A DNA stretch of 64,000 bases, taken from NCBI RefSeq assembly GCF_003591005.1, contig NZ_QYYD01000017.1, positions 62,001 through 126,000 of the forward strand, written 5' to 3'. The notes under the pieces are model-generated. The model searched no databases, was not told the DNA's origin, and was given only the letters and a program-made list of their open reading frames with translations. Of this stretch, positions 5,382-60,907 are shown piece by piece (positions within the stretch are counted from its first letter, which is position 1; the number at the start of each line of letters is the position of its first letter). This DNA is from Rhodopseudomonas palustris. GTDB taxonomy: Bacteria; Pseudomonadota; Alphaproteobacteria; Rhizobiales; Xanthobacteraceae. The position numbers and the translations under genes are program-made.

Positions 5382-5505
5382 CGTCATTCCGGGGCGCGCA
5401 GCGAAGCGGCGCGAACCCGGAATCCCGCAGTGTTCTGCGACTCGGCCGTTTCCACAACTGCGAGATTCCGGGTTCGCTCGCAAGGGCGAGCGCCCCGGAA
5501 TGACG
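5382..5505. repeat. Palindromic repeat, family R6 (CGTCATTCCGGGG ends)
   Basis: This 124-base imperfect palindrome begins CGTCATTCCGGGGCGCG and ends CGCCCCGGAATGACG. Inner inverted segments GAACCCGGAATC and GAGATTCCGGGTTC give nested hairpins. It lies between the ABC-F and arginase genes. The outer hexamers CGTCAT and ATGACG are shared with families R3, R4 and R5. Confidence 0.8.
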
Positions 5506-5555
5506 ACCGCGGGGAGGGCGCTCATTCCGGAAGGATGAGCGCGCGGGGAGAGCAC

Positions 5556-6539
5556 TCACCCCTCCGGCAGCACCGCGTTGCTCGGCGTCACGCGGTCGCT
5601 GATCTGCATGCCGAACAGGCTGCCGATCAGCTCGACGGCAACACGCGCGGTGCGGCCGCGCTCGTCGAGGAACGGGTTGAGCTCGACGACGTCGACCGAA
5701 CGCACCAGCCCGGAATCGTGCAGCAGCTCCATCACCAGGTGCGCTTCGCGATAGGTCGTGCCTCCGGGCACGGTGGTGCCGACGCCCGGCGCCACCGCGG
5801 GATCGAGCACGTCGACGTCGAACGACAAATGCAGCACGCCGCCCGCGGCGCGGACGCGGTCGATGATGCGGCGGATCAGTACGGCGACGCCGAACTCATC
5901 GATCGCCCGCATGTCGACCACCGGGATGGCGCGAGCGCGCACCAGTTCCTTCTCCAAGGGATCGATCGAGCGGATGCCGAACAGATCGAGTTGGCTCGGC
6001 GGGATCGAAACCCGCGGCTCAGCGCCGAGCAGATGATCGAGCCCGGGCTCGCCGCATAAAAAAGCCGCCGACATGCCGTGCATGTTAGCGCTGATCGTCG
6101 TCGCCGGCGTGTTGTAGTCGGCATGCGCGTCGAACCAAAGCACGAACAGCGGTTTGCCCTGCTGCTGCCAATGGCGCGCGACGCCGTTGATCGAGCCCAT
6201 CGACAGGCTGTGATCGCCGCCCATGAACAGCGGCACGGCGCCGGTTCTGGCGAGATCGTAAGCGCGCGCCGAGATCGCTCCGACCCAACTCCTCACCTCG
6301 TCATAGTAATTGGCGTTGGCCGGCGCCGGATCGTCGCTGCGCGTCACCGGCGGATGCGGCATGTCGCCATGGTCCTCGACCGTGAAGCGCAGTTGCTCGA
6401 GCACGCGGCCGATGCCGGCGGTGCGGAGCGCCGCGGGGCCCATCAGCGTGCCGCGTAGGCCGGCGCCGATCTCGATCGGGACGCCGAGCAGCGCGACGCG
6501 GCGGGCTGGGTCGGGCGGAAGCAAAGAGGAGGGCGTCAT
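5556..6539 (-). CDS. rocF: Arginase (ureohydrolase family)
   Basis: The enzyme would hydrolyse L-arginine to ornithine and urea in the cytoplasm with a binuclear manganese centre. All ureohydrolase metal motifs are present: GGDHS near residue 108, FDAHAD near residue 133, and SFDVDVLDP near residue 237. The N-terminal GVPIEIGAG and the LMGPAALR segment are typical of arginase rather than agmatinase or formiminoglutamase. Length (327 residues) is close to the usual 300-320. Ornithine from this reaction could feed the ornithine decarboxylase and homospermidine synthase encoded 27-30 kb away. The start ATG at 6539 is followed directly by a Ser/Pro-rich leader, and a start a few codons later is possible. 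Confidence 0.88.
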   Translation of the reverse strand: MTPSSLLPPDPARRVALLGVPIEIGAGLRGTLMGPAALRTAGIGRVLEQLRFTVEDHGDMPHPPVTRSDDPAPANANYYDEVRSWVGAISARAYDLARTGAVPLFMGGDHSLSMGSINGVARHWQQQGKPLFVLWFDAHADYNTPATTISANMHGMSAAFLCGEPGLDHLLGAEPRVSIPPSQLDLFGIRSIDPLEKELVRARAIPVVDMRAIDEFGVAVLIRRIIDRVRAAGGVLHLSFDVDVLDPAVAPGVGTTVPGGTTYREAHLVMELLHDSGLVRSVDVVELNPFLDERGRTARVAVELIGSLFGMQISDRVTPSNAVLPEG

Positions 6540-6616
6540 GCGCGGCGCCTTTCAAGAGGAGCGCAGGTCAGACAACCGCGTAGCCGCGCCGGATGACGAC
6601 CGTGCGTCCGTGCTGA

Positions 6617-59091: not shown

Positions 59092-59993
59092 TGGACAAGG
59101 TCGTCAACCAGAAGGCCTGGTTGCTGGTGCTGCCGGTGTTCGCCATCGTGGCGTTCTCGGCGATCCTGCCGCTGATGACGGTGGTGAACTATTCGGTGCA
59201 GGACACCTTCGGCAACAACCAGTTCTTCTGGAACGGGGTGGGCTGGTTCAAGGAACTGCTCGATCCGTCGAGCGATCTCGGCGGCCGGTTCTTCGCCTCG
59301 CTGGGGCGCAATCTGGCGTTCTCGATGATCATCCTGGCGATCGAAGTGCCGCTTGGCATCGTGGTGGCGCTGGCGATGCCGCGGCATGGCTGGAGCGTGG
59401 CGTTCTGCCTGGTGATCATGGCGCTGCCGCTGCTGATCCCGTGGAACGTGGTCGGCACAATCTGGCAGATTTTTGGCCGCCCCGACATCGGTCTGATGGG
59501 CTACACGCTGAACAGCCTCGGCTTCAACTACAACTACGTCTCCAATGATTTCGACGCCTGGGCCACCGTGGTGGTGATGGATGTCTGGCACTGGACCAGC
59601 CTGGTGGCGCTGCTCTGCTACGCCGGCCTGAAGTCGATCCCGGACGCGTATTATCAGGCGGCGCAGATCGACGGCGCGTCGCGCTGGGCGGTGTTCAAGG
59701 CGATCCAACTGCCGAAGATGCACCGCGTGCTCCTGATCGCCGTGCTGCTGCGCTTCATGGACAGCTTCATGATCTACACCGAGCCGTTCGTCGTCACCGG
59801 CGGCGGGCCGGGCAATTCGACCACCTTCATCTCGATCGAGCTGGTCAAGATCGCGCTTGGGCAGTTCGATCTCGGTAAGGCCGCGGCGCTGTCGATCGTC
59901 TACAACCTGATCATCATCATCGTCTGCTGGGTGTTCTACACCGTGATGACCAATGCGGGCGCCGAGCGCCAGCCGACCGAAGGGAACGCGTGA
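59091..59993 (+). CDS. glpP: Glycerol ABC importer permease GlpP
   Basis: This inner-membrane permease (300 residues) has about six membrane helices and belongs to the sugar-type MalF-like group. The coupling EAA loop is AYYQAAQIDGASRWAVFKAI near residue 185, in the usual place. It starts inside the glpT stop (TGATG) and overlaps the glpQ start in the same manner, which points to equimolar synthesis of the two permeases. The C-terminus after helix six is hydrophilic (GAERQPTEGNA). Confidence 0.9.
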   Translation: MDKVVNQKAWLLVLPVFAIVAFSAILPLMTVVNYSVQDTFGNNQFFWNGVGWFKELLDPSSDLGGRFFASLGRNLAFSMIILAIEVPLGIVVALAMPRHGWSVAFCLVIMALPLLIPWNVVGTIWQIFGRPDIGLMGYTLNSLGFNYNYVSNDFDAWATVVVMDVWHWTSLVALLCYAGLKSIPDAYYQAAQIDGASRWAVFKAIQLPKMHRVLLIAVLLRFMDSFMIYTEPFVVTGGGPGNSTTFISIELVKIALGQFDLGKAAALSIVYNLIIIIVCWVFYTVMTNAGAERQPTEGNA

Positions 59994-60799
59994 TGCATTC
60001 GATCCCCGGCCGCCGCATCGTGATGGCGCTGTATCTGTTGTTCCTGATGGTGCCGATCTACTGGCTCGTCAATATGAGCTTCAAGACCAATGGCGAGATC
60101 GTCTCGACCATGACGCTGTGGCCGCACCAGCCGACGCTGGAAAACTACCGGACGATCTTCACCGATCCAAGCTGGTATTCGGGCTACATCAACTCGCTGC
60201 AATACGTCGTCATCAACACCGTGCTGTCGATCTCCTTCGCGCTGCCGGCCGCCTACGCGTTTTCGCGCTACCGCTTCCTCGGCGACAAGCATCTGTTCTT
60301 CTGGCTGCTGTCCAACCGAATGGCGCCGGCCGCCGTCTATGCGCTGCCGTTCTTCAACCTCTATTCGGCGATCAACTTGTTCGACACGCCGTGGGCGGTC
60401 GCGCTGGCGCACTGCCTGTTCAACGTGCCGCTGGCGGTGTGGATTCTCGAAGGCTTCGTGTCCGGCGTGCCGAAGGAGATCGACGAGACCGCGTTTCTCG
60501 ATGGCTATTCGTTTCCACGTTTCTTCGTAAAAATCCTGATGCCCTTGATCGCCTCGGGTATCGGCGTCGCGGCGTTCTTCTGCTTCATGTTTTCCTGGGT
60601 TGAGCTGCTGCTGGCGCGCACGCTGACTTCGGTCAACGCCAAGCCGATCTCTGCGGTGATGACCCGCACGGTGTCGGCCGCCGGCATGGACTGGGGCCTG
60701 CTCGCCGCCGCCGGCGTGCTCACCATCATCCCGGGCGCGCTGGTCATCTGGTTCGTCCGCAACTACATCGCGCGCGGTTTTGCGCTGGGGCGGGTGTGA
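59993..60799 (+). CDS. glpQ: Glycerol ABC importer permease GlpQ
   Basis: The second permease (268 residues) is of the MalG-like group with six membrane helices. Its EAA-type loop reads GVPKEIDETAFLDGYSFPRFFVKIL near residue 155. The final helix ends in LVIWFVRNYIARGFALGRV, the standard end of the family. ATG 59993 overlaps the glpP stop by one base (TGATG); a GTG one codon earlier is also possible. The next operon gene is separated from it by a palindromic repeat. Confidence 0.9.
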   Translation: MHSIPGRRIVMALYLLFLMVPIYWLVNMSFKTNGEIVSTMTLWPHQPTLENYRTIFTDPSWYSGYINSLQYVVINTVLSISFALPAAYAFSRYRFLGDKHLFFWLLSNRMAPAAVYALPFFNLYSAINLFDTPWAVALAHCLFNVPLAVWILEGFVSGVPKEIDETAFLDGYSFPRFFVKILMPLIASGIGVAAFFCFMFSWVELLLARTLTSVNAKPISAVMTRTVSAAGMDWGLLAAAGVLTIIPGALVIWFVRNYIARGFALGRV

Positions 60800-60827
60800 G
60801 GATGGCCACAATGCACCCACGTCTCCC

Positions 60828-60907
60828 CGTCATTGCGAGCGAAGCGAAGCAATCCAGCGCGGTGCACGGCGCTGGATTGCTTCGTCGCTTCGCTCCTCGC
60901 AATGACG
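60828..60907. repeat. Palindromic repeat, family R3, inside the glycerol importer operon
   Basis: This complete copy runs from CGTCATTGCGAGCG to CCTCGCAATGACG with the inner GAAGCAATCCAG / CTGGATTGCTTCG hairpin. It lies between glpQ and glpU, in a 154-base gap within an otherwise tightly packed operon. Confidence 0.87.

Follow-up and report, generated by a model that had tools for sequence, protein, structure and literature searches.

The 64,000-nucleotide stretch of Rhodopseudomonas palustris DNA considered here (the window: positions 62,001 to 126,000 of contig NZ_QYYD01000017.1, or 62001-126000 of C8 among the 91 contigs of this 5.62-Mb genome) carries a series of palindromic elements. An earlier note described eleven complete copies that all begin with CGTCAT and end with ATGACG, assigned them to four families by their interiors (R3, R4, R5 and R6), and proposed that a common activity acts on the shared end. 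It could name no enzyme and noted none encoded in the window. The palindromes are head-to-head dimers of a known superfamily, the CGTC-tagged repetitive extragenic palindromes (REPs). Here we report that small GIY-YIG nuclease genes elsewhere in this genome and in others are placed precisely between matching copies of these repeats; for this reason we regard these nucleases as the likely missing enzyme.

CGTC-tagged REPs were described by Di Nocera, De Gregorio and Rocco (2013, PMC3733652). According to the accessible part of that paper, each unit has a CGTC tag, a stem with AT at its foot and a CCA-like tail, the units form head-to-head dimers, and R. palustris and Bradyrhizobium are among the hosts. 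CGTC REPs are found there in several phyla, REP families can attain thousands of units, and the superfamily takes in dRS3 of Neisseria and RPE-4 and RPE-6 of Rickettsia. The same text states that the repeats come without associated transposase genes, leaving the enzyme open.

All eleven complete elements lie where the earlier note had placed them, with the hexamer at both ends and lengths of 79-125 bp, and the three partial copies (at 31934, 49096 and 55056) are likewise present (Table 1). The sharing goes far beyond what chance would give: across the genome CGTCATTGCGAG occurs 467 times (237+230) and CGTCATGGCCGGG 229 times (114+115), against 0+0 and 0+1 for reversed-pattern controls. R3 is the commonest family in this genome (467 ends). 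A 0.86-Mb sample of the genome, window included, holds 245 family ends, which form 102 inverted pairs (46 of R3, 31 of R4, 21 of R6 and 4 of R5; one end is used in two pairs and a few pairs span just 29-46 bp) and leave 44 ends unpaired. Head-to-head dimers thus predominate.

Table 1. CGTC-tagged REP elements of the window. Orthologous regions: L073, Rhodopseudomonas sp. AAP120; L074, R. infernalis; L075, an R. palustris metagenome-assembled genome. L248 holds the R6 GIY-YIG unit of this genome.
Feature	Position	Strand	Basis
R6-family CGTC REP head-to-head dimer (TTCCGGGG)	5382..5505	.	motif and pairing; ~70 bp alignment with end of R6 GIY-YIG unit L248
R3-family CGTC REP head-to-head dimer (TTGCGAG)	12465..12569	.	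sequence ends
R4-family CGTC REP head-to-head heterodimer (GGCCGG/GCCCGG)	15516..15640	.	sequence ends; comparison with nuclease unit ends
R3-family CGTC REP head-to-head dimer	15645..15723	.	sequence ends
R6 remnant, single end	31934..31978	.	sequence ends
R3 long form	40476..40591	.	orthologous site: L073 short form, L074 long form, L075 none
R3 long form	41268..41386	.	orthologous site filled: L073 and L075 short forms, L074 long form
R5-family CGTC REP head-to-head dimer (CCTGAGG)	43838..43958	.	sequence ends
R4 heterodimer	45206..45295	.	arms match R4 GIY-YIG unit end; ~30 bp collapsed form in L073
R3 head-to-head dimer	45348..45430	.	sequence ends; relatives
R5 dimer, convergent gene gap	45953..46074	.	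other R5-like element in L073; R4 element in L075
R6 copy, one degraded end (end approximate)	49096..49182	.	sequence ends
R4 copy, left end mutated to CGCCAT	55056..55145	.	sequence ends
R3 short-form head-to-head dimer	60828..60907	.	sequence ends

The earlier note held the four families to be unrelated. They share instead a single architecture, because every half-element consists of (C)GTC, a hairpin whose arms start and end with AT, and a tail of CC or near it; a whole element is two such halves facing one another. The tag, CGTC or its variants TGTC and CCTC, stands unpaired at one end of each unit. A stem of 8-9 bp starting with AT, a loop of 4-5 and a CC-type tail are clear in R4 and in a further family, R7, introduced below; the inner hairpin of R6 is longer, and the arms of R3 and R5 pair imperfectly.

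How exact is the common end? In alignments anchored on interior motifs only, it is sharp at GTCA, with per-base conservation of 96-100% in R3, R4 and R6 (n=86, 57 and 56) and 80-100% in R5 (n=10). The leading C is present in 97-100% of R3, R4 and R5 ends and 66% of R6 ends, and conservation drops steeply outside GTC. The hexamer is nevertheless not the exact boundary for which it had been taken: it comprises the tag and the first stem bases, inside a slightly longer unit. Similarity in R4 and R6 runs about 10-16 bp beyond it, the very extension that the earlier note had said would count against a common end. This outer flank is asymmetric (about 11-16 bp in R4, about 10 bp in R6). A GAGAGG-like motif read outward occurs at family-specific spacing at 55 of 202 ends; the opposite strand has it at 1 of 202, and positions further out at 3 of 202. 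A CT-rich flank, CCTCTC, lies mostly 3-7 bases from GTC. We considered the outer flanks as part of the element. They are specific to tagged sites in R4 only, where one flank pattern exceeds chance solely beside the tag (8 there; away from it 6, with 5.7 after shuffling). Another four outer patterns are found away from the tag as well, two of them in excess of their shuffled versions.

The window also has palindromes of a different family (CCCTCTCCCGCTTGCGGGAGAGGG then CTGGGGTGAGGG), at 1500-1545, 3544-3589, 7585-7630, 12610-12655, 35873-35918 and 49226-49271. This family carries the GGAGAGG string seen outside CGTC elements and, in some relatives, occupies the same slots.

At orthologous sites, relatives often carry another form of the element or another family. 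In the convergent slot near 45.9 kb the element is R5 in the window, R5-like in AAP120 and R4 in the R. palustris metagenome-assembled genome. At 43838, L074 and L075 have short orthologous gaps that contain no R5 element, and L073 has a CCTC-tagged palindrome. (The window protein that we read as ferrochelatase is 97% identical to its AAP120 match; this name, like dnaN, recF and UvrC-like, is a reading of the sequence, not the result of a family search.) Presence and absence between relatives was seen, and a duplicated target was not: none of the 102 elements is flanked by a direct repeat of at least 4 bp. In R. infernalis the R3 long form of 40476-40591 seems to be inverted at its orthologous site, so inversion in situ, or replacement by gene conversion, may occur in these elements. 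The terminal ATGACG of the same element (40586-40594) could give the downstream gene its start codon (M T K R V V M G).

A scan for single genes lying between CGTC units (3.3 Mb, 61 gaps) brought out a 95-residue GIY-YIG protein whose gene fills a 367-bp unit that ends on either side in an outward-facing CGTC hairpin. Judged by eye on their first 60 residues, none of the genes in the 61 gaps was recognised as a transposase; DDE families were not searched. The genome has six genes matching PF01541. Three of them, all outside the window, about 95 residues long and 57-60% identical, are bracketed on both sides by one CGTC REP family each: one by ATTGCCGGGC (R7), one by R6 and one by R4. Their domain matches have E values of 5.8e-15 to 7.8e-13. 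None of the other three is bracketed. The candidate enzymes are these small GIY-YIG nucleases, which lie outside the window; R4 and R6 each have their own.

The association extends to other genomes. We counted CGTCATTSCSRS in 398 genomes of the phylum and picked by hand 41 CGTC-rich ones besides our own (38 to 549 hits; several with equally many hits were omitted), together with 60 CGTC-poor ones. A search with the alignment of the three bracketed nucleases found a homologue in 31 of the 41 rich genomes at E<=1e-6 and in 27 at E<=1e-25, compared with a match in 16 of the 60 poor genomes; these comparisons ignore kinship between genomes. All 16 Rhodopseudomonas genomes, ours included, have a homologue, one of them only weak.

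Brackets were called wherever GTC, an 8-nucleotide arm, a loop of <=60, a partner with <=1 mismatch and then C occurred with the tag outward within about 300 bp. When a CC tail was required, 15 of 30 nuclease loci were bracketed on both sides, 14 by the same stem, and 5 on one side. The controls in that run, loci of REP-associated tyrosine transposases (RAYTs) and random positions in our genome, gave 0 of 28 and 2 of 2151, none of the latter with the same stem (3 of 33 nuclease loci, at contig edges, and 4 of 32 RAYT loci were dropped). A looser tail was applied to 110 loci. Among the 101 strong homologues (>=75 bits), 64 have brackets on both sides, 55 of these with the same stem, and 17 have one on a single side. 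Nine loci are weaker; two of these are bracketed, both partial hits, and the six weakest (37-49 bits) are not. The looser RAYT control again gave 0 of 28 on both sides, with 4 to 6 on one side depending on reach, in mostly the same genomes; random windows gave 57 of 4514, none with the same stem. Two-sided brackets are found at 3 of 3 loci in our genome, 28 of 36 in other Rhodopseudomonas, 30 of 54 in CGTC-rich and 3 of 8 in CGTC-poor genomes. Because genomes were picked for CGTC richness or kinship, the bracketed fraction is not a species-wide rate. Units with matching stems are 360-630 bp long (median 411).

Homologues also occur in 33 plasmid records, several of them near-duplicates, and in no phage record. 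In 14 examined with a slightly looser detector (7-nucleotide arm), the same or nearly the same stem stands on both sides in eight: those of Neisseria gonorrhoeae, Azospirillum lipoferum, Sinorhizobium meliloti, Rhizobium CIAT894, Shinella, Sphingobium, Neorhizobium and Aeromonas. By eye, the Novosphingobium gene is bracketed by units with another tail, and Planktothrix and Spirosoma have GTC palindromes. No bracket was detected in Photobacterium or in two Rhizobium tumour-strain plasmids. Some GIY-YIG genes (L269, L280) are flanked by differently tagged palindromes (GTGTCCCGGACG...CCGGGACCCAG), which may represent another tag type of this system.

Nuclease and REP family travel together. On a tree of the 101 nucleases (a quick method on 98 columns, with many weak forks), REP family changes 13 times, compared with 32-39 times in 200 shuffles; 59 proteins were labelled in 12 classes, near-identical stems having been merged by hand, and 42 rows carry no label. 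Orthologues in the same place inflate this figure: 13 of 20 R6 members share flanks, as do all six of the ATCGCCCG family. Judged by DNA similarity of the outer flanks, which loses power between distant genomes, R6 occupies seven places, R4 two and R7 two, and the nine members with AT[TC]CCCGC stems occupy nine. Our three paralogues carry three different families. The proteins are also under constraint. In 99 of them Y6, Y17 and E64 are conserved at 100% and R27, H31 and N83 at 99%; we take Y6, Y17, R27, E64 and N83 to be the catalytic residues (Y, Y, R, E, N). The median ratio of nonsynonymous to synonymous change is 0.146 in R6 (28 pairs), 0.098 in R4 (6 equal-length pairs, with synonymous change near saturation) and 0.105 in R7 (10 pairs), so the nucleases are under purifying selection at a ratio of about 0.1.

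How might a nuclease unit become a gene-less palindrome? The slot between dnaN and recF could be read in 15 of the 16 Rhodopseudomonas genomes. It holds a complete R7 unit in our genome and G406, and by eye the same R7 ends surround gene remnants in G403, G412, G408 and G401; gene-less head-to-head dimers can therefore arise by internal deletion. In G399, G409, G404 and G402 the slot is taken by a dimer from a different CGTC family or by a variant thereof, and the remaining five have longer inserts (two with an R7-like half) or other palindromes. Our own R7 unit, upstream of recF, adjoins a truncated CGTC element (L247, 1423-1455) of the ATCGCCCG family, which fills the slot in four relatives. 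Of three Sphingobium strains read without the gene, two have in its slot one collapsed palindrome that belongs to the same family, and the third has other sequence. The A. lipoferum unit lies between sufB and sufC and is missing from A. ramasamyi, A. oryzae and strain B510, whose flanks are 95-98% identical; the junction is too unclean for a target to be read. Within the window, the R4 copy at 45206 matches the end of the genome's R4 unit at 36 of 36 bases in one arm and at 32 of 36 in the other. Two R3 copies score 13-24 against nuclease unit ends, at or just above the shuffle maxima of 16-22. One R5 copy matches the R6 unit ends modestly (32 and 37 against 22 shuffled) and the other matches none.

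We think it likely that the R4 and R6 elements, and by analogy those of R3 and R5, are non-autonomous derivatives of GIY-YIG units, and that each nuclease recognises, cuts and spreads its own REP family. The autonomous unit would be about 360-630 bp: a REP, the nuclease gene and an inverted REP. The nuclease of about 95 residues would recognise the unpaired (C)GTC and the family-specific hairpin and cut there, the tag serving, on the model of RAYT/TnpAREP, as recognition site, with the CCTCTC flank as a candidate cleavage or target site. After the cut, the element would reach new intergenic sites by spreading or repair, with no duplication of the target; repair copying, or a hairpin intermediate formed in replication, may yield the new copy. 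If the gene were lost through an internal deletion, two REP arms would be left facing each other, as in the window; derivation of R3 and R5 from such units is suggested by analogy. The proposal that a single kind of activity acts on an end common to elements of differing interior fits what was observed, with amendments: the families belong to one known superfamily, and the hexamer is not the exact end.

Several results weigh against this scheme. No homologue was found at E<=1e-6 in 10 of the 41 CGTC-rich genomes, and a strong one (E<=1e-25) is present in 6 of the 60 CGTC-poor genomes. Of the best locus in each of these six, three are bracketed on both sides and one on one side, by REPs outside the counting pattern, and two not at all. 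No bracket was detected at 20 of the 101 strong homologues. Among the 110 loci, no cognate nuclease for R3 or R5 was found. The ATCGCCCG family is confined to one place in its six members. The outward motif shows no clear strand bias (7 to 8 on C1, 17 to 8 on C4, 10 to 8 on C22, 4 to 3 on C8). Finally, comparison with empty sites in Bradyrhizobium, Rhodopseudomonas and plasmids gave presence and absence, and no exact junction, target or excision.

The most serious alternative is that the nuclease gene is a selfish passenger. GIY-YIG is a fold of homing nucleases, and the gene might use CGTC dimers as landing sites while the REPs spread by other means. One of our own proteins weakly matches a group I intron endonuclease model, below the cutoff; gene copies are few (1-7 per matching genome) where REPs number hundreds; and in Azospirillum, as by eye in Planktothrix, a complete dimer stands on either side of the gene. 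We nevertheless judge this improbable. The gene-less R7 dimers between dnaN and recF carry gene remnants, and so the gene came first there. Nuclease clade and REP family co-segregate across different places, and homing leaves the spread of the REPs without explanation.

Less probable still is that the elements are no longer mobile, their hairpins kept as terminators or stabilisers of 3' ends and their common ends maintained by constraint and descent. Position lends this some appeal. With gene gaps taken from a simple composition-based gene caller on 0.85 Mb, 99 elements fall into 51 co-directional, 39 convergent and 2 divergent gaps (6 lie inside called open reading frames and 1 at an edge), compared with 349, 108 and 98 gaps available, and different species have different families in the same slots. 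Avoidance of promoters alone, however, yields an equal positional bias, and retention as terminators does not explain the hundreds of near-identical copies, their presence and absence between species, or the intact nucleases that they bracket.

The enzymes first suggested for a search were RAYTs and DDE transposases. GTAG REPs rely on RAYTs, the lack of target duplication suits HUH enzymes, and our genome encodes two RAYTs (NF047646). Both are surrounded by GTAG REPs with no CGTC REPs adjoining. No NF047646 match exists in 22 of the 41 CGTC-rich genomes; 19 of the 22 have no Y1_Tnp gene at all, the other 3 having broken or partial pieces only, and 18 of the 19 carry a nuclease homologue at E<=1e-6. 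In the 1.5 kb fetched on each side of RAYT loci, CGTC REPs occur at 2 of 32: three at L170, of which the closest is about 430 bp from the match, and one at L165, about 500 bp away. The L170 site is L230 9375-9621 (G049), where a divergent RAYT-like gene is separated from the three REPs by about 430 to 680 bp; this case may be chance in a CGTC-rich genome. Many RAYT loci carry GTAG REPs on both sides, and beside one (L002, 1926-2298) GTAG REP pairs stand in tandem at 133-bp steps. A long autonomous element was also sought in the fetched sequence. Two candidate end pairs emerged and were rejected: one encloses a decarboxylase-like gene (a reading, not a family search) between two independent R6 copies, the other only a 109-residue open reading frame. 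Mobilisation in trans by a RAYT/IS200 (HUH) or DDE transposase is therefore very unlikely, since GTC hairpins bracket none of the 28 RAYT loci under either detector, most RAYT-less CGTC-rich genomes lack any Y1 gene, and the absence of target duplication disfavours a DDE origin as a miniature inverted-repeat transposable element. RAYTs have reportedly been sorted into groups by Bertels et al. in 2017.

If GIY-YIG nucleases do drive the R4 and R6 elements, the same may hold more widely, and we lean, with less assurance, towards the view that CGTC REPs are a class of bacterial mobile elements driven by a stand-alone GIY-YIG nuclease, each nuclease lineage carrying and recognising its own tagged hairpin. 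The gene-less dimers that number hundreds per genome, among them dRS3 of Neisseria, would then be internally deleted, trans-mobilised progeny, and the whole would be a second, independently evolved REP/REPtron system. Proteins whose usual entry in public records is no more than 'GIY-YIG nuclease family protein' would thereby gain a function, and mobile elements with tagged hairpins would have arisen twice, on unrelated nuclease folds. With a cognate nuclease in hand, one purified protein of 95 residues and short oligonucleotides suffice to put the question to the test.

Apart from the REPs, histidine-rich repeats occur in two reading frames of the window, at 41981-42154 in a transporter-like gene and at 29257-29340.

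The CGTC REP superfamily is known; its association with cognate GIY-YIG nucleases was not found among the matches listed in the literature searched, which mostly excludes subscription papers, so absence in print is not proven. Where the terms do meet, the accessible text of PMC9465073 mentions giy-yig and RAYT as separate genes, PMC6140425, listed as a match for giy-yig and 'palindromic element', concerns fungal mitochondria, and the listed giy-yig papers matching 'repin' concern restriction enzymes. The association bears on the enzyme question that PMC3733652, in its accessible part, explicitly leaves open. Like the repeats described there, those studied here have an unpaired CGTC tag and, most clearly in R4 and R7, an AT-starting stem and a CCA-like tail, are mostly head-to-head dimers and occur in alphaproteobacteria. 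Unlike that account, which in the same part reports no transposase, cognate CGTC REPs here bracket a GIY-YIG nuclease gene; going beyond it, four families and R7 coexist in one genome, and stems starting with ACCC or G[TC]CCC also stand beside the nuclease.

The bracketed nucleases resemble stand-alone GIY-YIG or UPF0213-type nucleases in domain and catalytic residues, the closest solved structure by sequence being 1zg2 (UPF0213 BH0048, E 2e-7), and differ from their six weakest homologues, which have no REP bracket. As in the REPtrons of REPIN/RAYT systems, cognate tagged hairpins flank a small nuclease gene and non-autonomous dimers lie elsewhere, here with no target duplication. The tag of these elements, however, is not the GTAG or GTGG of REPINs, and the bracketed genes are not RAYTs: where REPtrons pair a GTAG tag with an IS200/IS605-related HUH Y1 fold, the present units pair a CGTC tag with the GIY-YIG fold.

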